From an uncultured Verrucomicrobiota bacterium (lineage in GTDB: Bacteria; Verrucomicrobiota; Verrucomicrobiia; Palsa-1439), in the NCBI GenBank assembly GCA_903825435.1, contig CAIKAP010000111.1, positions 1-58,859 on the forward strand: DNA of 58,859 nucleotides. The letters are read 5' to 3'. The notes under the pieces were generated by a model, which saw only the letters and a list, made by a program, of their open reading frames with translations, was not told the origin of the DNA and did no database searches. Below are positions 3,621-44,321 of the stretch, piece by piece. The translations under genes were made by a program, and so were the position numbers. Within the stretch, counting starts at the first letter, position 1, and the number at the start of each line of letters is the position of its first letter.

Positions 3621-5132
3621 ATGATTGTGTCTCGCTCCAGTCATTGGCCCCGCAAGCAAATCCTGCTGGCAGTGGCTGATGGATTATGCGCTGCCTTGGC
3701 GGTTGTCATGGCGGTGATGTTGCGTCTTGGGCCGGTGGAAGGACTGGCGTATCTGCAGATGCACCTCACGACGATTGCAATAGCATGGACCCTTTACCTT
3801 CTCTCCTTCTACATCTGCGGTCTCTACGAGGTGCCCACCATGCAACGCGTCAGTCGCATGCTGACAACGGCGATCCTGGCAGTGGCGTTAGGTTCGCTCC
3901 TGACGACATCGGTGTTTTATGTAAACTTCTCACTGGAAATGGGACGCGGCATCTTCTTGGGGTTCGCGGGGTTTGTGTTTGCTGCCATCGTCGCCAACCG
4001 CCTATTCTATATAGCGGCCAACCGCAGCGGCTTCCTCGCGCAACGGTGCCTGATCATCGGCACCAACGGCGAAGCACGCAAGACCGTCCAACTCATCCAA
4101 CGGTACCAGCATCATGGCCTTCGCATTTTCGGAATGATCCACTGCGGCCAAAAACACGATATAATCGGGCAGTTTATCGAAAACTACCCCGTCCTCGGCA
4201 CACTCGATTCGCTGGAAAGATTTGTCCATCTCTACGATGTCGAACGCATAATCCTAGCCACTACCGCCGACGAGGAGACGCTCCTGCTCAAACGCCTTCG
4301 CTCCTTCCGCTATCGCGGCCTGGCGATTGTAGATTTCATCACGCTTTACGAGGAATTGGCTCAGGAAATCCCCATCGACTACATCAACGACGAGTGGCTT
4401 TTCCTCGCCTCCCTCAACAACTCCCGCATCCACATCCGCCGCCTCAAACGACTGACCGACATCTTCGTTGCAATCATCAGTCTCATCGTCACTGCCCCAC
4501 TAACCGCGTTGGCAGCACTGCTGATCAAACTCACATCCACCGGCCCAATCCTCTACTATCAGGAACGGCTTGGGCGCGACAGCATTCCGTTCATGCTGCT
4601 GAAGTTCCGCACTATGATCACCGACGCCGAAAGCCAGACCGGCCCCGTCTGGGCAGCCGACAACGACCCTCGCATCACGACTGTAGGCAAGTTACTCCGC
4701 AAAACTCGCATCGACGAGATCCCTCAACTCGTCAATGTCCTCCGAGGCGAGATGAGCCTTGTCGGTCCCCGTCCAGAGCGTGCCGTTTTCATTCAGAAGC
4801 TCTCAGAGAAAATCCCGTTCTACGCTGAACGGCTTTTGGTACCGCCAGGTGTCACAGGTTGGGCGCAGGTTATGGCGCCGTATGCCGCCAGCGTCGAAGA
4901 GACTCGCCGCAAGCTCCAATACGACCTCTACTACATCAAACACATGTCCTTCTTCCTTGATATCTTCATTTTCATGAAGACAATCAAAACCGTGATTTTC
5001 GGACGCGAACGCAAGAAACAAATCGCCCCAGAGCCGTCCGTCCCCCAGCACGAGGTTATCAAGACCGATACCATCTTTCTCAACTCCGCCAAGCACGACA
5101 TCTCCTCCAAAGAGAAACAGAAACTGGCGTAA
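3621..5132 (+). CDS. Polyprenyl-phosphate hexose-1-phosphate transferase (WbaP/EpsE-type)
   Basis: This inner-membrane enzyme starts exopolysaccharide or O-antigen repeat units by moving sugar-1-phosphate from a UDP-sugar to undecaprenyl phosphate. The 503-residue product has four to five N-terminal membrane segments (about residues 12-125) and a Rossmann-like CoA-binding middle domain (CLIIGTNGEARKTVQLI). It ends in the bacterial sugar transferase domain (about 275-460) with LLKFRTM, LRKTRIDEIPQL, MSLVGPRPE, PPGVTGWAQV and YDLYYI. The sugar cannot be read from sequence. No other polysaccharide genes lie beside it. The C-terminal tail after about residue 465 is polar and not conserved in the family. 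Confidence 0.92.
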   Translation: MIVSRSSHWPRKQILLAVADGLCAALAVVMAVMLRLGPVEGLAYLQMHLTTIAIAWTLYLLSFYICGLYEVPTMQRVSRMLTTAILAVALGSLLTTSVFYVNFSLEMGRGIFLGFAGFVFAAIVANRLFYIAANRSGFLAQRCLIIGTNGEARKTVQLIQRYQHHGLRIFGMIHCGQKHDIIGQFIENYPVLGTLDSLERFVHLYDVERIILATTADEETLLLKRLRSFRYRGLAIVDFITLYEELAQEIPIDYINDEWLFLASLNNSRIHIRRLKRLTDIFVAIISLIVTAPLTALAALLIKLTSTGPILYYQERLGRDSIPFMLLKFRTMITDAESQTGPVWAADNDPRITTVGKLLRKTRIDEIPQLVNVLRGEMSLVGPRPERAVFIQKLSEKIPFYAERLLVPPGVTGWAQVMAPYAASVEETRRKLQYDLYYIKHMSFFLDIFIFMKTIKTVIFGRERKKQIAPEPSVPQHEVIKTDTIFLNSAKHDISSKEKQKLA

Positions 5133-34847: not shown

Positions 34848-35741
34848 TCAGGCCAGACCGTGGCGCATTTTGGCGGCGCGGATGGTGTTAGACATCAGCA
34901 TCGCGATAGTCATCGGGCCGACGCCGCCGGGCACGGGCGTGAGCAGGCCGGCTTTTTGTTTGACGGCGTCGAAGTCGACGTCGCCCACGAGGCGGCAGCC
35001 TTTTTCGGTAGTCTTGTCCTCGACGCGGTTGATGCCGACGTCGATGACGACGGCACCGTCGCGGACCATTTCGGATTTGACGAAGCGCGCAACGCCGATG
35101 GCGGCGATGAGAATGTCAGCGCTGCGGCAAATCTCTGCGAGGTTCTTGCTCTTGGAGTGCACGACGGTGACGGTGGCATTGGCGTTGCGGGCTTTTTGGG
35201 AGAGTATCAGCGAGACGGGGCGACCGACAATGCGGCTGCGGCCAAGAACAACAACGTGCGCTCCTTCGACGACAACGCCACAACGGCCAAGAAGCTCTTG
35301 GACGCCAGCGGGTGTGCAGGGAACGAATCCGCTAGGGTCGCCGATGGCAACTTTGCCGATGTTGAGCGGATGGAAACCGTCCACGTCTTTACCGGGATCA
35401 ATGGCAGCAAAGATGGCCTCCTCGGAAATCTGTTTCGGCGTGGGCGATTGGACGAGGATACCGTGGATATTGTCCTGTTGGTTGAGTCGGGCGATGATGG
35501 CAAGTAGTTCAGTCTGCGTCGTGATAGCGGGCAACGTAATTTTCTCCGAGTGCATTCCGAGGCGAGCGCACATTTTATCTTTCGAGGAAACGTAGGCGGC
35601 GCTGGCCGGGTTGTCGCCGACGAGGACGACGGCGAGGCCGGGAGTCAGTCCGTGCTGCTGTTTGAGGCGCGCGACTTCGACAGCATTCTCGACGTTGATC
35701 TGTTCTGCGATCTGTTTGCCGTCAATCAGCTTGGCCGTCAT
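34848..35741 (-). CDS. folD: Methylenetetrahydrofolate dehydrogenase / methenyl-THF cyclohydrolase
   Basis: FolD interconverts methylene-, methenyl- and formyl-tetrahydrofolate, linking ThyA's cofactor to purine synthesis. The 297-residue protein has Tyr50 and the catalytic Lys54 in [33 protein letters not shown], the cofactor motif [17 protein letters not shown], and [14 protein letters not shown]. The ATG at 35741 has a good ribosome site (aaggga); the frame continues upstream without a start supported by one. Confidence 0.96.
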
Positions 35742-35752
35742 GAACGATTCCC

Positions 35753-36640
35753 TTACCAGACAGGTTCGATGCGTTCGACGATGATCACGGGGTAACGTTC
35801 GCCACGGCGCCAACGCAGGTTGCCGAGGATGCGCACGTGTTTGCCCTCGTACTTGTCGAGGTTCTTTTCCGCCATGTCGAGGTAGGCGACACGATACTGG
35901 CGGCGGTCGAACACCAACGTCATCAATTCATATGGCGCGAGCATCTTCTCTTCTTGTTTCTCTTGGGAATCCACCGTCTGGAAAATACCGTCCCTGACAA
36001 CGTAGTATGCCAATGTCTCCGGCTCCGACTGAAAAGCGGGTGTGGGCGCGGGCACCACCACGGGTGGCGCGATGGGAGCTGAAACAACTTCGGCAACATT
36101 GCTGATGATCGGCGGCGCGGGCGTCAACACGGGCACGGGAACGGGAGCCACTTCGAGATATTCAGAGGCAACCCAGCCGCTACATTGCAGCGTCGGCTTA
36201 ATCTGCGTCCATTCACTACCAGCCTTGACGAGGTACACCTTTTCCCCCTTGGTGAGCTTGCCAATTTCCTTGAAGTTGCTACCGGGGCCGCAACGGATGT
36301 TGATGCCGTCGCCGGTGGCTTTGCCACCAGCGATCAACTTGGAGAGGACGTAGCACTTGGCGGTGGCGGGTAAAGTGATGCGAGACCATTCCTGGGTCTT
36401 GCCAGCTTCGACGACGGACTTGGTCTCAAAGACCTTGACCTCGTCGCCTTTCTTCAGTTGAGTAACAAGTTCCGCAGTGCGGCTGGGCCGGGCGCGGATG
36501 TTGACTTTGTTGGCCTTGAGCAGGCTGGCGCCGGCAGAGGGCGCTATAGTCGAGATGGACGCGGCACCCGAATCGGCAAACGCCGCAGCGGCAACGAGCA
36601 TGACGAAACTAATCGTGCAGTAGCTGGTGAACTTCTTCAT
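35753..36640 (-). CDS. Exported bacterial SH3-domain protein
   Basis: The 295-residue product has a signal peptide (about 1-22) and two SH3-like (SH3b) domains. The first is about residues 42-105 (NKVNIRARPSRTAELV) and the second about 110-165 (GINIRCGPGSNFKEIGKL, GWVASEYLEVA). A Pro/Val-rich linker follows, then a C-terminal domain of about 80 residues that ends VIIVERIEPVW. SH3b domains often bind peptidoglycan, so a cell-envelope role is likely. The start overlaps the upstream pseudouridine synthase gene by 32 bases and has its own ggagg site. Confidence 0.85.
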   Translation of the reverse strand: MKKFTSYCTISFVMLVAAAAFADSGAASISTIAPSAGASLLKANKVNIRARPSRTAELVTQLKKGDEVKVFETKSVVEAGKTQEWSRITLPATAKCYVLSKLIAGGKATGDGINIRCGPGSNFKEIGKLTKGEKVYLVKAGSEWTQIKPTLQCSGWVASEYLEVAPVPVPVLTPAPPIISNVAEVVSAPIAPPVVVPAPTPAFQSEPETLAYYVVRDGIFQTVDSQEKQEEKMLAPYELMTLVFDRRQYRVAYLDMAEKNLDKYEGKHVRILGNLRWRRGERYPVIIVERIEPVW

Positions 36641-37319
36641 TGGTCAAATACCTCCATTGTCCTAGTTTCAAATTTCCGAGCGTCAAATTTCCAATCGCCA
36701 CGCGCACGAGTCGCTGAACGGGATGACCGACGGCGGCCATCATACGGCGGATCTGTCGTTTCTTGCCCTCGCAAATGATCAGTTCCAGTTCGCTCGCATC
36801 GCTGCTCGTACGAAGCTGCGCCACACTCTCGGCCCGGAGGCGTTCACCTTCGCTAACAATCCCGTTGAGCAATCGCGTCGTCGTTTCTTCCCCCCATACG
36901 CCGGCAACCTGTACGCAGTATTTCTTTGGCCTTTTATAGCGGGGATGCGTCAGCTGCAAGCTAAAACTGCCGTCATTGGTTAGCAAGAGCAATCCCTCGG
37001 AGTCCGCATCGAGGCGTCCAACCGTGTAAAGACGCGGCAATGTCGGCGGCAAAAGGTCCAACACGCGCTTACGTCCGTGCGTGTCGTGGCTGGTACAGAA
37101 GACGCCGCGCGGTTTGTGGAGGGCAATGTAGAGTTTGCGCTCGGCGGTAACTAGATTAGAGTCCACTGCCACTCGGTCGGCGTTGGGTTCCACCTTGGTT
37201 CCCAACTCAGTGACGAGGCGGGCGTTAACGGTAACGCGGCCTTTCTGAATGAGTTTTTCGCAGGCGCGGCGCGAGCCAACGCCCGCTTCAGCAAGAAACT
37301 TTTGCAGACGGACAGGCAC
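36609..37319 (-). CDS. RsuA/RluB-family pseudouridine synthase
   Basis: These enzymes convert one uridine of 16S or 23S rRNA to pseudouridine. The 236-residue protein has an N-terminal S4 RNA-binding domain (RLQKFLAEAGVGSRRACEKLI), the catalytic aspartate motif GRLDADSEGLLLLTNDG, then KKYCVQVAG and EGKKRQIRRMMAAVGHPV. This matches RluB/RsuA; the target base cannot be fixed from sequence. It starts at a GTG at 37319, 15 bases after the small basic protein gene. Confidence 0.93.
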   Translation of the reverse strand: MPVRLQKFLAEAGVGSRRACEKLIQKGRVTVNARLVTELGTKVEPNADRVAVDSNLVTAERKLYIALHKPRGVFCTSHDTHGRKRVLDLLPPTLPRLYTVGRLDADSEGLLLLTNDGSFSLQLTHPRYKRPKKYCVQVAGVWGEETTTRLLNGIVSEGERLRAESVAQLRTSSDASELELIICEGKKRQIRRMMAAVGHPVQRLVRVAIGNLTLGNLKLGQWRYLTNEEVHQLLHD

Positions 37320-37496: not shown

Positions 37497-38483
37497 CTAT
37501 TTCTTGCTGGGTCGTTTCAGTTTTTCAATTTTTTCTTTGGCTGGCTTCTCGAACTCTAGATTCTTACCAGAGGTCAGGTATTTTTCAAAATGTTTTATCG
37601 CGGTGGCCGGGTCGCTTTCCTCGTTGAGGAGGCCGAGCTTAAAATAGATCAGGTGGTAATCGGGGCGCAACTGAAGGGCTTGCCGGTAGGCCTTGTCGGC
37701 CCTATCAGCCTGTTTCAACTGGCGGTAAGCGTCGCCCATGCCGCTGTAGGCGGGCGCGTATTTCTCGTCCTTGTCCACAGCTTTGCGGTAACAGACCAGA
37801 GCCGCTTCGAGATCCTTGCCGGCGGCGTAGATGTCGCCCATGGCGTTGTTGTAGTACGGGATGGACGGGTCCTCATCAAGCGCCTTTTGGAGGAACCGTT
37901 TCGCCTCCGGCAATCGTCCCCGCGTGAGGTGGAGGACCCCGAGGCTGTAGTAGGCGTCGCCGTTGTGGCGCCCGGCCTTTTCCTCAAGCTGCACGAATGT
38001 CTCCAGATGTTTCTGCGCCTCATCCATCTTCCCGGCTTCCTTGAGCAGGATGCCGTAGTTGTGGTGGGCGCGTCCGAAATCCGGGTCAGAAGCGAGCGCC
38101 TTCTCATAGGCAGCCTGCGCCTCGATGCGTTGGTTCTTCTCATCGTAACGGACACCCAGTTGTGTCCACACATCGGCGTCGTTCGGTTTCAGCTCCAGAT
38201 AACGTTTATAGGTACTGATCGCCTCATCGGGCTGGTTCAACTTCTCGCAAGCCACCGCAAGGTTGTAGAGCGCGTTAGGGTGCCGCGGGAAAATCCGCAG
38301 CGCTCGTTGGTACTCGGCCTTGGCGCGGGGCAGCGAATTCCTCTCCATGAACTCGTTGCCGCGCACGAAATACTCATTGGCCTCGCTGACCGCGCGCTTA
38401 TCTGCCTCCGTCAACTCCTCTCCCCGCGCGGCACACAACGCCATCAACGCAACCACCATCATAATAATTACATGCTTCATCAT
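37497..38483 (-). CDS. Exported TPR-repeat protein
   Basis: The 328-residue protein has a signal peptide (MMKHVIIMMVVALMALCAARG) followed by about eight tetratricopeptide repeats (for example AEYQRALRIFPRHPNALYNL and YKRYLELKPNDADVWTQLG), which bind partner proteins. It ends in a Lys-rich tail (FEKPAKEKIEKLKRPSKK). Its start overlaps the stop of the CutA-HEAT-TPR fusion by four bases, so the two are probably made together in the periplasm. The partner is unknown. Confidence 0.85.
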   Translation of the reverse strand: MMKHVIIMMVVALMALCAARGEELTEADKRAVSEANEYFVRGNEFMERNSLPRAKAEYQRALRIFPRHPNALYNLAVACEKLNQPDEAISTYKRYLELKPNDADVWTQLGVRYDEKNQRIEAQAAYEKALASDPDFGRAHHNYGILLKEAGKMDEAQKHLETFVQLEEKAGRHNGDAYYSLGVLHLTRGRLPEAKRFLQKALDEDPSIPYYNNAMGDIYAAGKDLEAALVCYRKAVDKDEKYAPAYSGMGDAYRQLKQADRADKAYRQALQLRPDYHLIYFKLGLLNEESDPATAIKHFEKYLTSGKNLEFEKPAKEKIEKLKRPSKK

Positions 38484-39973
38484 TTCGCTCCCAGTTTCTC
38501 CAATACTTGTCCTGCCTGTTTAACGACTACGCTGTCGGGAAATTCACGCGTCAATTGCTCCAGCCCCCCCCGTCCTTTCTCCCTCTGTCCCAGCGCCAGA
38601 CGGCTCAGCCCAAGACAATACAACACCTTGTCCTTCCGGGCGAACGCCGGCCAGCGCTCCAGCAACTGCTCGTAACAGTACGCCGCTTGCGCATGACGGC
38701 CTTGATGACCAAGTACCACTCCCAACGCCAGCAGCGCATCCGCCGTCCAGCCGCTGCGATTTGCCTCGTCATAGCAGATCACGTTCCGTAAATGCGGAAT
38801 CGCCAAATCCTCACGCCCCTCATCGAGGCACGTCTCCGCCACCTTCCAGTTCGCCATCACGTCCGACGGGGCGCGTTGCGCCCGACGCTGCAATTCGTAG
38901 AACGACTCCGATCCGCGCCGCGCCTGCGCCATCCGCGCCAGCAACCGCTCCTTCTCCACCATACCCACCGCACGCGCCAGTTCGACGCCCTCTCCGTCTA
39001 ACAACAACACCGTCGGCGCCCCACGCACATCGTAAAGACGCGCCTCCGCCGTGTGCGTTGCTGCGTCCACGCGCACACACACAAATCCCAGCATCCGTTC
39101 CGACACCTCCGGCGCGGCTAGCACCGCCGACTCAAATTGCCGACAATTCGACGACTCCGGCACGAAGAAATACGCCAGCACAAATTGTTTCCTCTTACGC
39201 GCCTCCTTCAGCACCGCGCCCAGCGAACGCCACCAGAAGAGTTGGACCCGCAACTTCACCAGCGATTCCACCGCCACTTCCCGCACCAATTCCGAGGCGT
39301 CCGACTTCGCAGCCATTTCCAGCCAGGGCACTGCCTCCCGTCGTCCGCTCTGACCCAACGCCAGCGCCGCCGACCAACGCACCAACGATTCCCCGTCCTG
39401 CAGCCGGCCACGCACCAGTTCCAAATCCTCATCCGTCTCGCTCACCCGCAACAAACCCGATACCGCCATCTGGCGCGCCTCCGCGCCCGGCGACGCGATC
39501 ATCGCACGAAACTGTTTCACCGCCCGCTCGCCGCCGAGTTGCGCCAATCGTTCCGCCGCCTCCACCCGCGTCTCCTCGTTACCGGAGCGCAACTGCTTCA
39601 CCGCGTCGTCAATCGCGTCCCCGCGCGACGATGTCGCCGCGCACAACAACGCCAGCGTCGCCACCGCACCGCGCAGCCATTTCAGGTAACGCCGCTCGCC
39701 ACGCGCGATCCGAACAAAAATAATTTCTGGCACATCATAGCTGTGCACCGCCTTAATCGCACGCGTCACCGCCGCCGACTTCGCCTTCGTCGTCTTGATC
39801 AACAAGAGGCACTCCGCACCACGTTCCAGTTTACCCTGCCACCAATAATGCGACTCGACACCCGCGACGATGTTTACGCACGCCGCCAGCTTCGACTTCA
39901 ACACCACTTGCGCCAGCGAACGCGCCTCGGCCTTCGAGCCGCACGTCACCATACCTACCACGTGCCCGCTCAC
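38480..39973 (-). CDS. CutA1-HEAT-thioredoxin-like-TPR fusion protein
   Basis: The 497-residue open frame joins four parts. Residues 1-95 are CutA1, a small cytosolic trimer-forming protein (MVTCGSKAEARSLAQVVL, LAACVNIVAGVESHYWW, SYDVPEIIFVRI, RYLKWL). Residues 97-115 (RGAVATLALLCAATSSRGD) look like a signal peptide or membrane anchor. HEAT repeats follow (about 118-235), then a thioredoxin-like domain with one Cys (SSNCRQFESAV, GAPTVLLLDGEG), then TPRs to the end. CutA1 normally ends right after YL.WL, so either its stop was lost or the second gene starts at a non-standard codon inside it. The GTG at 39973 overlaps the HAD gene's stop. Confidence 0.8.
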   Translation of the reverse strand: MSGHVVGMVTCGSKAEARSLAQVVLKSKLAACVNIVAGVESHYWWQGKLERGAECLLLIKTTKAKSAAVTRAIKAVHSYDVPEIIFVRIARGERRYLKWLRGAVATLALLCAATSSRGDAIDDAVKQLRSGNEETRVEAAERLAQLGGERAVKQFRAMIASPGAEARQMAVSGLLRVSETDEDLELVRGRLQDGESLVRWSAALALGQSGRREAVPWLEMAAKSDASELVREVAVESLVKLRVQLFWWRSLGAVLKEARKRKQFVLAYFFVPESSNCRQFESAVLAAPEVSERMLGFVCVRVDAATHTAEARLYDVRGAPTVLLLDGEGVELARAVGMVEKERLLARMAQARRGSESFYELQRRAQRAPSDVMANWKVAETCLDEGREDLAIPHLRNVICYDEANRSGWTADALLALGVVLGHQGRHAQAAYCYEQLLERWPAFARKDKVLYCLGLSRLALGQREKGRGGLEQLTREFPDSVVVKQAGQVLEKLGAK

Positions 39974-40554
39974 GCTGCCTCCTTGTCCACGATCTCCAGC
40001 ACCCCCGTCAACCGACGGATTACGAACTCCGCATCCTCCGCCCACGGTGGCAACGCACCACGCTCCACCAACACCACGCTACGCGCCCCCGCGTTGCGCG
40101 CGCAGAGCACGTCCCACTTGTAGTCGCCGACCATCAACAACTCGCACGGTTTTGCACCCCAGCAGCGCGCAATGTTCCGGATTGGTTCCGGCGACGGTTT
40201 GTACGGCCCGTCCTCACGGCTGACGGCGATATCGAAATTCAGTTCCAACCTATGGCAGACCAAGTCAACCGATCGACGCGAGTTGCGCGTCAACAACGCC
40301 GTCGGCAGCCCGCGCTGGCGCAGGCCGCGCAACACCGTACGCGCCCCGCAGTTCAACTTCGTCCGTGCTGCGGCCTGGTTCTCGTACTTCACGATGATGC
40401 GATGAAGCCGCGCGCGTTCCGCGCCGCGCACCAAGCCGAGATGGTCCAGCAAGTCCACGTCGCCGACGTTCGCCTCGGCCTTGATCCGGTCGAAGTCGAA
40501 ACACATCGTTGTGAGCGTGCCGTCCATATCGAAAATGACACCGTGAATAGCCAT
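39970..40554 (-). CDS. HAD-superfamily phosphatase
   Basis: The 194-residue cytosolic hydrolase has the HAD motifs in order: VIFDMDGTLTT with the nucleophile Asp, ALLTRNSR, KPSPEPIRNIAR with the lysine, and LMVGDYKWDVLCARNAG with the metal-binding acid. It resembles phosphoglycolate phosphatase-like members; the substrate is unknown. Its stop overlaps the CutA fusion start. It carries a perfect GTTCCGG repeat at 40174-40191, encoding PEPIRN. Confidence 0.9.
   Translation of the reverse strand: MAIHGVIFDMDGTLTTMCFDFDRIKAEANVGDVDLLDHLGLVRGAERARLHRIIVKYENQAAARTKLNCGARTVLRGLRQRGLPTALLTRNSRRSVDLVCHRLELNFDIAVSREDGPYKPSPEPIRNIARCWGAKPCELLMVGDYKWDVLCARNAGARSVVLVERGALPPWAEDAEFVIRRLTGVLEIVDKEAA
40174..40191 (+). 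repeat. GTTCCGG-N4-GTTCCGG repeat, copy 5 (perfect)
   Basis: GTTCCGG at 40174-40180 and 40185-40191, spacer ATTG, inside the HAD gene. The sense strand carries CCGGAAC. Confidence 0.85.
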
Positions 40555-40688: not shown

Positions 40689-43600
40689 ATGCTACGAACA
40701 CTCGCTATGATTCTCGGCCTCGCCACAGCGGCGCAGGCCATCACGCCGCAACAACTGCGCTGCGAATACCGCGTCAACCCACTCGGCATTGACGAGACAA
40801 AACCGCGCCTGAGTTGGACCCTCGCCTCCGACCAGAAAGCCGATAAACAGACCGCCTACCAAGTCGTCGTCACGTCGGGACAGGAGACGCTTTGGGACAG
40901 CGGCAAGGTCGCCAGCGATGAGACCACCGCCATTGTCTACGACGGCAAACCGCTCACCACCGGCATGCGTTGCTCGTGGAAGGTGAAAGTTTGGGACAAA
41001 GACGGCACTGAGTACGCCTGGAGTGAACCCGCCGCTTGGACGATGGGCTTGCTGCAAGCGTCCGACTGGAAAGCTGAGTGGATCGGCTACGATAAAGCCC
41101 GCCAGGACATCGAGCTGCCCAACGCACCGCTTGATGGCGCGAAATGGATTTGGCACGCCGCCGACCCCAAGCCGAATCCACTGTTCGGCAGTCGTCTATT
41201 CGTCAGCAACTTCCGCCTGCCTGCCGACATCAAAATCGCTAAGGCCACTCTTTTCACCATCGGCGACGACAACTACAAGGTTGTCGTCAACACCCACGTT
41301 GTCGTCAAAGGCTGGATGTGGATGCAAATCAAAACCACTGACGTTACCGCCAACCTGCACGCTGGCGACAACAACCTCCGCGTCGAAGTCTGGATCCCCG
41401 GCAAAACCCCCACCGGGTTTCTCGCCAAGCTCGTCGTCACCACGGCCGCCGGCAAAACGATCACGCACGTTACCGATTCGTCCTGGAAAACCCTTAGAGA
41501 CCCGGGCGCCGACTGGCAGGATCGTAACCTCGACACCACCGCATGGCCCGCCGCACATGTGCTCGGTGATTACGGCATGCACCCGTGGGGCAAGCTCAAG
41601 CTCGAAGCACTTTTTCTGCCGCCAGTACCGTATCTGCGGACGAATTTCCGTACCGACAAACCAGTCAAGCACGCCATACTTTATGTCAGCGCGCTCGGTC
41701 TCGCTGATGTCCAAATCAACGGCAAGCGCGTCACTGACGATTGGTTCAACCCCGGCTGGACCGATTACGCCAAGCGCGTTTACTACCGGACCTACGACGT
41801 CACCGCGCTTGTCAAACGCGCTAACAACGATCTCGGCGTCACACTCGCCGACGGCTGGTTTAGCGGATACATCGGCTATCACCAAGCACGCAATCACTAC
41901 GGAAAACTCCCGCGTGTCCGCGTCCAGTTAAACATCGAATACGCCAACGGCACCACCGCCGTCGTCGGCACCGGCCCGAATTGGAAAGCCACCACCGGGC
42001 CGTTACTCGAAGCCGATTTCCTGATGGGCGAAACCTACGATGCGCGTATCGAGCCTCGCAATCGGGATACCGTCAACGTCGGTTGCACCGAAGTCCATCC
42101 CGCCGTCCAAGCGCACCCCTCCCCCCCTGTCGTCGTGGTGCAAGAGTTCAAGGCCACAACCATCACCGAGCCAAAGCCCGGCGTGTACGTCCTGAATTTC
42201 GGCCAGAACTTCGCCGGCGTGGCACGCCTGACGGTGCGCGGCGAGCCGGGTCAGAAAATCACGCTCCGGTATGCCGAGCGACTCAACCCCGACGGCACGA
42301 TCTACACCGCCAACCTCCGTAGCGCCCGCGCGACCGATACCTACATCTGCCGCGGCGACGACGTTGAGACGTGGACGCCACGGTTTACCTTCCACGGCTT
42401 CCAGTACATCGAGGTTACCGGTCTGAAAGAGAAACCGTCGCCTGACACCGTCGTTGGCATTGCGCTTAGTAGCGACACGCCCATCGCCGGCAACTTCCAG
42501 TGCTCCGACCCGATGTTGAACCAGCTTCACAACAACATCTACTGGACGCAGCGCGCCAATTTCATTGACATCCCGACCGATTGCCCGCAGCGCGACGAAC
42601 GCCTCGGCTGGACCGGCGACGCGCAAGTTTACATCCGCACTGCCACGCTCAACACCGACGTACAGGCGTTCTTTAACAAATGGCTCGTTGATCTTTGCCA
42701 AGACAGCCAACGCACAGACGGCCAGTTTTGGACGGTTGCCCCTTTTAAAGTCGCCATTAACGATGGCGGCCCTGCATGGTCCGACGCTGGCGTCATCTGC
42801 CCTTGGACTATTTACGAAGTTTATGGTGACCGTCGCGTGCTGGAAAAAAACTACGATGCGATGACGCGCTTCATTGCATTCTGCCAGAAGCGCAGCACAG
42901 CGGAGCTATTGCCGCCGAAACAATACCACTGCTTCGGCGACTGGCTCAGCATCAAGGCCGACACACCGAAGGATGTGATCTACGAGGCCTACTTCGCCTA
43001 CAGCACCAAGCTCGTTGCCCGCGCCGCCGAAGTCCTCGGCAAGAAGGAAGACGCCGCGAAGTACAACCAATTCTTCAACGACATCAAGACCGCGTTCAAC
43101 AAAGCCTACGTCGCCGCCGACAGTCGGATCAAGGGCAACACCCAATGCGGGTACGTACTGGCCATCGCCTTCGACCTCCTCGACGCCGACAAGGCAAAGC
43201 TCGCGGGGAAGTATCTCGTCGAAGATATCGAGAGCCGCAACAATCATCTCTCCACCGGTTTCGTCGGGACGAAGGATCTCATGTTGGCGCTCGCGAAGGT
43301 CGGTCGCAACGACGTCGCCTACCGGCTCATCCACAACGACACCTTCCCGTCCTGGGGCTTCTCCATCAAACACGGTGCAACCTCGATCTGGGAACGTTGG
43401 GACGGCTGGACCCCCGAGAAAGGCTTCCAAGCCCCCAGCATGAACAGTTTCGCCCACTACAGTTTTGGCGCAGTCTATCAATGGATCGTCGAGAACATCG
43501 GCGGCATCCACAGCGAAGCGCCCGGCTACAAGCGCATCCTCATCGCGCCGCAGCCCGGCGGCAAGCTCACCTCAGCCAAGACCAGCTATCGCAGCATCCG

Positions 43601-44321
43601 CGGCCTCATCGGAAGCGACTGGCGCATCGCCAACGGCAAGTTCATCCTCGACGTCACCATCCCCGTCAATACCACCGCCACCGTTATTATGCCGACAACA
43701 GGTATCCATGACATCGGCTCCGGCCAACATCACTTCGAGGAACCGTTCGGCGTCAAGACAACCTCAGAAGAGGAGTCATTGTTCGACGGCAAGAAACTCG
43801 GCAAATGGAAGCCTGCCGATTTCTACGGCAAAGGCAACAAGATCACCGTGGCCGACGGCGCCATCCGCATTGCCATCGGCGAGCCGATGGTCGGCATCGT
43901 CTGGAGTGGCGAACCGCCCGCGCGGATGAACTACGAAATCGAACTCGACGCGAAGCGGACCGATGGCGACGACTTTTTCTGCGGCCTAACGTTTCCTGTC
44001 GGCAAGGACCCATGCACGTTGATCTGCGGCGGCTGGGGCGGTACTGTCGTCGGCCTGTCAAGCATTGACGGCTACGACGCCTCCGAGAACCAGACCAGCC
44101 ACTCGATGAAGTTCACCAAGGACCAGTGGTACCACATCCGTCTTCGCGTTACCGAAAAGAAGATCGAAGCGTGGATTGACGACGAACAGATCATCGAACA
44201 GGAACTCGCCGAGCATTGCGTCTCCGTCCGCATGGAAGTCGAGCCGTGCATCCCGCTCGGCGTCTCGACATGGAATACCGGGGCCGCCCTTCGCAACATC
44301 AAGTTCCGTAAACTCGACTGA
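40689..44321 (+). CDS. Alpha-L-rhamnosidase (GH78) fused to a DUF1080 domain
   Basis: The 1210-residue exported protein (signal peptide about 1-18) cleaves alpha-rhamnosides of plant polysaccharides or glycosides. N-terminal Ig/CBM67-like beta domains lead to the (alpha/alpha)6 barrel with IDIPTDCPQRDERLGWTGD (general acid region) and ATSIWERWDGW (general base region). From about residue 1020 a separate domain begins ESLFDGKKLGKWK and contains DQWYHIRLRVTEKKIEAW. This is a DUF1080 fold, recently linked to 3-keto-glycoside cleavage. A strong ggagga site precedes the ATG. This fusion joins the same activities found as separate genes downstream. The gene is convergent to the next one with a 3-base gap. 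Confidence 0.92.
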   Translation: MLRTLAMILGLATAAQAITPQQLRCEYRVNPLGIDETKPRLSWTLASDQKADKQTAYQVVVTSGQETLWDSGKVASDETTAIVYDGKPLTTGMRCSWKVKVWDKDGTEYAWSEPAAWTMGLLQASDWKAEWIGYDKARQDIELPNAPLDGAKWIWHAADPKPNPLFGSRLFVSNFRLPADIKIAKATLFTIGDDNYKVVVNTHVVVKGWMWMQIKTTDVTANLHAGDNNLRVEVWIPGKTPTGFLAKLVVTTAAGKTITHVTDSSWKTLRDPGADWQDRNLDTTAWPAAHVLGDYGMHPWGKLKLEALFLPPVPYLRTNFRTDKPVKHAILYVSALGLADVQINGKRVTDDWFNPGWTDYAKRVYYRTYDVTALVKRANNDLGVTLADGWFSGYIGYHQARNHYGKLPRVRVQLNIEYANGTTAVVGTGPNWKATTGPLLEADFLMGETYDARIEPRNRDTVNVGCTEVHPAVQAHPSPPVVVVQEFKATTITEPKPGVYVLNFGQNFAGVARLTVRGEPGQKITLRYAERLNPDGTIYTANLRSARATDTYICRGDDVETWTPRFTFHGFQYIEVTGLKEKPSPDTVVGIALSSDTPIAGNFQCSDPMLNQLHNNIYWTQRANFIDIPTDCPQRDERLGWTGDAQVYIRTATLNTDVQAFFNKWLVDLCQDSQRTDGQFWTVAPFKVAINDGGPAWSDAGVICPWTIYEVYGDRRVLEKNYDAMTRFIAFCQKRSTAELLPPKQYHCFGDWLSIKADTPKDVIYEAYFAYSTKLVARAAEVLGKKEDAAKYNQFFNDIKTAFNKAYVAADSRIKGNTQCGYVLAIAFDLLDADKAKLAGKYLVEDIESRNNHLSTGFVGTKDLMLALAKVGRNDVAYRLIHNDTFPSWGFSIKHGATSIWERWDGWTPEKGFQAPSMNSFAHYSFGAVYQWIVENIGGIHSEAPGYKRILIAPQPGGKLTSAKTSYRSIRGLIGSDWRIANGKFILDVTIPVNTTATVIMPTTGIHDIGSGQHHFEEPFGVKTTSEEESLFDGKKLGKWKPADFYGKGNKITVADGAIRIAIGEPMVGIVWSGEPPARMNYEIELDAKRTDGDDFFCGLTFPVGKDPCTLICGGWGGTVVGLSSIDGYDASENQTSHSMKFTKDQWYHIRLRVTEKKIEAWIDDEQIIEQELAEHCVSVRMEVEPCIPLGVSTWNTGAALRNIKFRKLD

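Follow-up and report, generated by a model that had tools for sequence, protein, structure and literature searches.

How a cutA gene comes to continue, with no stop codon, into what looks like an exported repeat protein, and whether the cell makes one product or two from it, is the question raised by a locus of an uncultured Verrucomicrobiota bacterium. The window, i.e., the whole stretch of DNA analyzed here (58,859 nucleotides of contig CAIKAP010000111.1), contains on its minus strand a frame (38480-39973) that is open from a GTG at 39973, preceded by AGGAGG, to the stop at 38480-38482. The 497-amino-acid product has Pfam matches to CutA1, HEAT_2, Thioredoxin_2/7, and TPR_6, each above its cut-off. 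From the N terminus, it consists of a CutA1 domain (residues 7 to 101; 39671-39955), HEAT repeats (residues 119 to 245; 39239-39619), a thioredoxin-fold domain with an SxxC motif (residues 246 to 352; 38918-39238), and a TPR region (residues 353 to 497; 38483-38917), all on the minus strand; structure comparison agrees with Pfam for the last three, as does alignment for the thioredoxin-fold domain. Between CutA1 and the HEAT repeats lies the junction (residues ~100 to 118; 39620-39676, minus strand), where the end of the CutA helix merges into the hydrophobic core of a putative signal peptide, with rule-based cleavage predicted after residue 118 (G|D). The first-pass annotation had proposed this in-frame fusion of CutA1 to a signal-like segment and a HEAT-thioredoxin-TPR protein, and the stop-free frame, the Pfam matches, and the same arrangement in 8 of 10 members of the order bear it out. 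A search for promoters inside the fused frame gave no excess over shuffled sequences.

The match to CutA1 (PF03091) covers profile positions 3 to 97 of 99 (1.1e-33, 115.4 bits versus a cut-off of 22.4); the score against the NCBIfam CutA equivalog NF041095 is 93.9 bits, below the 120 bits required. The aromatic residues of the trimer interface (trimer-interface residues of CutA are named in the excerpted text of PMC3004244) are kept in all eight fused proteins, at the equivalents of E. coli Y50, W52, Y86, Y103, and W106, with Phe for Y50 in one genome (G009). CutA is present in 10 of the 11 genomes of the order, with one copy in each, so the fused CutA is the only one that the genome has. A stand-alone CutA of ~100 to 115 residues is not encoded in 8 of 10 order members, which have no stop, and the end of the CutA helix in the fused proteins aligns with the true C-termini of split relatives (RKSVNKK, RDSVK). 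The function of CutA in general is still described as unsettled in excerpts of PMC8469502 and PMC3004244.

Upstream, a gene for a HAD-family hydrolase (39970-40554, minus strand) overlaps the fused gene by 4 nucleotides (GTGA), and the gene for an exported-looking TPR protein downstream (37497-38483, minus strand) does so equally (4 nucleotides, ATGA). The coupling to a HAD phosphatase and a further TPR protein noted in the first-pass annotation is thus seen in these overlaps, and the order HAD, cutA, HEAT-thioredoxin-TPR, TPR is conserved in 10 of 10 order members. After the operon, on the same strand, come genes for an S4/pseudouridine synthase, an SH3-domain protein, and a folD-like protein (34848-37319), with homologues in the same order in most relatives. 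The window also carries an alpha-L-rhamnosidase gene (40689-44321), the last part of which is a 3-keto-disaccharide hydrolase domain (PF06439).

Distribution and origin of the fusion

The lineage is a little-known one of the Verrucomicrobia, and its family and order each comprise the same 11 genomes here. The junction is readable in 10 of them; G002 was dropped, as all that it has of the locus is the end of the second gene, at the edge of a contig. Looking for the same junction in these relatives, we found the in-frame fusion in eight (G000, the genome of the window, G001, G003, G005, G006, G008, G009, and G010), spanning five genus labels. The two genes are split in G004, where cutA ends in KSVNKK*, and in G007, where it ends in RDSVK*; the second gene starts through a 4-nucleotide ATGA overlap and begins in both genomes with the identical AAATGAAC. 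Seven of the ten junction loci were recovered again as MAG contigs (six fused and one split). Relatives with a stop between the halves, which would have pointed to an assembly error or a strain-specific mutation, do exist (2 of 10), but neither error nor strain mutation can account for a fusion shared by eight genomes of five genus labels. All the genomes are draft metagenome assemblies, a setting in which a base-calling or assembly error, or a pseudogene, comes to mind; this is refuted, and deserves next to no credence, given eight separate genomes with differing DNA at the joint, junction lengths that differ in whole codons, and dN/dS far below 1.

Outside the order, the fusion was not found. 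The class-level sample comprised 188 genomes (the 11 of the order and 177 others), with a CutA match in 110 of the 177; none of these 110 matches continues stop-free past query residue 113, and none of the 78 CutA ends read is fused. In all 78, the stop lies 4 to 31 residues past the Trp (median, 8), and longer CutA matches outside the order pass through stops (e.g., G126, G176, and L082/L084). Among 12 regions with long open frames or odd spans that were rechecked, 11 stop 6 to 31 residues past the Trp; in the twelfth (L184, contig 46 of genome G174), the 3' end of cutA continues in another frame, apparently through a frameshift from assembly error or decay. In two other Verrucomicrobia (L082 and L084, near 4310-4450), the cutA stop is followed a few codons later by a reopening of the same frame into an exported-looking protein, one stop loss short of a similar joint. 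The second gene was found nowhere outside the order among the matches in the 188 class genomes, and the second protein in none of 386 other genomes of the phylum at 1e-20 (a sample that evidently does not include the other order members). No viral contigs were found, and a literature search for CutA fusions retrieved none.

The tree of the joined proteins pairs the fused G005 with the split G007 as sisters (100/100) and places the other split genome, G004, among the fused ones, a topology that forces two changes. A concatenated tree of four neighbor genes again groups G005 with G007 (99.5/98). In the rooted rpoB tree, from which G005 is absent as its assembly has no rpoB, G007 branches first and G004 next (84/86, unresolved). 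Since CutA is free outside the order and both split genomes share the same start of the second gene, two fusions (one in G005 and one in the rest) need fewer steps than one fusion followed by two re-openings. Considering that fused and split genomes interleave in the trees, the fusion probably arose twice. Neighbors with a 4-nucleotide overlap fuse easily, and the fusion is not required, since two relatives keep separate genes; hence, a single deletion might have joined the two by accident, the joint itself bringing no gain. We regard this neutral explanation as possible but rather unlikely, since the joint has been retained in eight species of five genus labels under strong purifying selection on both halves and probably arose twice, although a neutral origin is compatible with a present function.

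The junction and selection on both halves

The junction of the window reads YLKW-LRGAVATLALLCAATSSRG|DAIDD, with no stop. In all eight fused proteins, no 12-residue window is more hydrophobic than the one at the junction, and a K or R stands between Y96 and the hydrophobic core. By simple rules, on which the signal peptide and cleavage calls rest rather than on a trained predictor, all eight fused proteins have A, V, S, or C at position -3, A or G at position -1, and then D, and the -3/-1 rule is also satisfied by both signal peptides of the split genomes. The features of a Sec/signal peptidase I substrate (positive n-region, hydrophobic core, and small residues at -3/-1) are therefore found in all eight fused and both split proteins. 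The stretch from the Tyr to the Asp measures 22, 24, or 28 residues, i.e., whole-codon differences, and that from the Trp to the cleavage-type site 18 to 24 residues. The hydrophobic stretch is long and strong in G003, G008, and G010 (12-residue mean of 2.4 to 3.0), and no junction cysteine fits a lipobox by eye. An AlphaFold model of the fused protein (12 rows; pLDDT 82, pTM 0.43) has a helix at residues 96 to 113 unbroken across the joint, with low confidence at residues 91 to 120.

Selection was estimated in four fused pairs by a simple counting method, with dS partly saturated. dN/dS was 0.05 to 0.17 in the CutA part, mostly 0.06 to 0.22 from HEAT to TPR (one value was not computable), and 0.29 to 0.87 in the junction. 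Purifying selection acts on both halves of the fusion, and the junction is fast evolving, yet the hydrophobic core and the -3/-1 residues are retained.

One translation product or two

With no stop in the fused genomes, every ribosome that translates cutA there must continue into the second half. Two alternatives had been put forward in the first-pass annotation, namely, that a lost stop gives one chain or that the second protein has a start of its own, a non-standard codon within the last part of cutA. The former is supported by the lack of a stop in 8 of 10 genomes, a frame kept through a fast-evolving junction, and selection on both halves. For the latter, the sole candidate start site with a charged n-region is found at the Y-L-K-W codons that close CutA (TAC CTG AAA TGG; 39677-39688, minus strand), where a start would give a textbook signal peptide (M-K-W-L-R and the core); in E. 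coli, these very codons hold the start of dsbD, in another frame. Ribosomes starting at the Leu/Met codon of Y-L-x-W would then make, in addition to the fusion, a normally secreted repeat protein. This codon is TTG in five of the eight fused genes and ATG in one (G005), but it is CTG in G000 (the window) and G008. Moreover, TTG is not enriched over the Leu usage of the genes themselves (at least five TTG of seven, P = 0.16, leaving out G005 with its ATG), and ATG occurs at the equivalent codon in 1 of 78 free CutA genes as well. Shine-Dalgarno (SD) pairing before the Y-L codon is ordinary, with 25 to 57% of the positions in the same gene at least as strong, and in seven of eight genes it falls short of the average for synonymous reshuffles (G005 is the exception), whereas the true cutA starts pair at -4.2 to -10.9 kcal/mol. 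In G008, there is no ATG, GTG, or TTG from 15 codons before to 13 codons after the Y-L codon. As the codon, SD, and start codon tests are all negative, an internal start is neither needed nor supported; the claim of a second protein starting inside cutA found no positive support, with no SD excess and no TTG enrichment, and an internal start was rejected as the main source of the secreted part, although it may give a minor extra product. That two products are made side by side seems improbable to us.

Predicted fate of the fused protein

We propose that loss of its stop brought cutA into one frame with the signal peptide of the exported HEAT-thioredoxin-TPR protein encoded by the adjacent gene, and that translation would now yield one precursor. 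Its CutA domain would fold and presumably trimerize in the cytosol, while the outward-facing last CutA helix would enter the hydrophobic core and provide the positive n-region. The HEAT-thioredoxin-TPR part would be translocated, and signal peptidase I is predicted to cut at the retained small-x-small site. After cleavage, CutA, carrying a short hydrophobic tail, would remain at the cytosolic face of the inner membrane, and the repeat protein would be released into the periplasm, in a 1:1 ratio. Judging from sequence features, such a single precursor, with CutA inside, the repeat part exported, and the two parted by signal peptidase, is on balance probable. Against it, a signal located 100 residues into the chain, behind a very stable trimer, is an unusual export signal.

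One intact chain across the membrane, as the first-pass annotation had it, is less likely than a cleaved one, because signal peptidase-type residues are kept at -3/-1 in all eight fused proteins. Without cleavage, the product would span the membrane as a trimer, its CutA part inside and its three HEAT-thioredoxin-TPR arms outside, and be a candidate transmembrane sensor. The evidence for the fusion serves this reading equally, the strong and long hydrophobic stretch of G003, G008, and G010 would suit it, and CutA trimers are discussed as signal transducers in excerpts of PMC8469502. However, only 18 residues separate W99 from the cleavage-type site in G005, G006, and G009, too short for an ordinary membrane anchor, and all eight proteins retain the -3/-1 residues within an otherwise fast-evolving junction. 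We hence consider it unlikely, and rank the cleaved precursor before the uncleaved spanning trimer and the latter before an extra internal start. It is also conceivable, but very doubtful, that these elements act jointly. A cytosolic PII-like CutA trimer with three short membrane segments and three periplasmic arms would pass a periplasmic state (metal, thiol, or protein-folding stress) inward, and cleavage by signal peptidase would be the switch that releases the arms; that the joint evolved on at least two occasions would reflect an old functional pairing of cutA with an exported thioredoxin-fold protein, with E. coli cutA-dsbD as its unfused form.

The predicted exported part

In a Foldseek search with the model of the fused protein, CutA structures match the first part. 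The mature part modeled alone (AlphaFold; pLDDT 88, pTM 0.46) has E. coli YbbN/CnoX (3qou) as its rank 1 match, with an rmsd of 19.5 Å over 267 columns, so only the domain order and the folds agree with YbbN, while the domains are placed differently. Compared part by part (VIA-align), HEAT matches alphaRep (Z 18.9), the thioredoxin part 2lst (Z 15.3), and TPR BamD/YbgF (Z 14.8), the TPR half comparing better with YbgF and BamD. The thioredoxin part also matches the Salmonella YbbN structure 3qdn (9.3e-5). That other families are missing from the fold-match lists is no proof of their absence.

The thioredoxin-like domain had been called single-Cys in the first-pass annotation, which is right for the active-site position, with one Cys (SxxC, in eight of the nine members having the domain), but not for its surroundings, where the alignment places a second Cys nearby (FVC) in seven of nine genomes with the domain, the window included. 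In G004 (split; L162, 1062-2300), the SxxC cysteine is replaced (SETR), and in G009 (fused; L080, 4001-5143), the domain was lost by an in-frame deletion and HEAT directly joins TPR; the redox site is thus dispensable. Ser takes the place of the first active-site Cys, G004 lacks the second as well, and G009 has no such domain at all, so that protein binding, and not disulfide reduction, is the most likely activity of the exported part. Our best guess is a protein-binding, holdase-like factor of the periplasm whose SxxC thioredoxin fold is no reductase and whose architecture resembles that of the thioredoxin-TPR chaperedoxin CnoX/YbbN, preceded by HEAT repeats.

Such a fusion, which occurs naturally, is under selection, and probably arose more than once, would connect CutA with the inner membrane and with the handling of proteins or thiols in the periplasm, and a single gene is enough to test this link. 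It also shows clearly how a cytosolic protein that is normally separate can stand ahead of a signal peptide, and raises the question of how Sec and signal peptidase handle a stable folded trimer before the signal.

Comparison with known systems

With free CutA1 proteins (PF03091, e.g., E. coli CutA), the window's CutA has in common the full domain and the trimer aromatics, but it never stops. A parallel arrangement is that of E. coli K-12, where dsbD starts 25 nucleotides inside cutA (NC_000913.3, 4365018-4365042), out of frame, its ATG overlapping the TGG of the cutA YLSW codons. There, too, the gene after cutA encodes an exported protein that has a thioredoxin-fold domain and starts at these codons; however, the two E. 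coli genes lie in different frames, each with its own start and stop, whereas here there is one frame. The DsbD signal peptide from the YLSW start up to the cleavage site (MAQRIFTLILLLCSTSVFA, 19 residues) is similar in length to the Trp-to-cleavage stretch of the fused proteins (18 to 24 residues), and in an overlap of the cutA-dsbD type, a single frame change would suffice to produce such a fusion. An exported-looking frame starting inside cutA was found only in G004, G007, and E. coli among the 81 free or split ends scanned, while five other exported-looking frames listed begin at or past the cutA stop. The thioredoxin domain of the fused protein matches the C-terminal domain of DsbD (4ip1; 7.3e-9), but the exported protein is not DsbD, as it has SxxC instead of CxxC, scores 29.8 bits versus a cut-off of 330, and carries HEAT and TPR repeats; six of the 11 order genomes do have a DsbD_N domain, at another place.

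CnoX is a cytosolic protein. Like CnoX/YbbN, the protein described here has a thioredoxin fold with SxxC followed by TPRs; unlike it, it is preceded by a signal-like segment and HEAT repeats. Excerpts of PMC6282202 describe CnoX/YbbN with SXXC (in E. coli), TPRs, and a holdase role, working with GroEL and DnaK. In YqfO/NIF3 proteins, a CutA1-like/PII domain is inserted in a larger protein, according to excerpts of PMC8469502. That insertion is in a cytosolic enzyme, with no signal segment or repeat protein, unlike the fusion here. The fbcH precursor of Bradyrhizobium japonicum (cytochrome b/c1), attributed to Thony-Meyer 1989, is reportedly cut after translation at an internal signal sequence. 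It likewise has two proteins in one frame, the second with an internal signal sequence, although cleavage is only predicted in our case, and the first partner is a membrane protein in fbcH but a soluble cytosolic, presumably trimeric, protein in the fusion described here.
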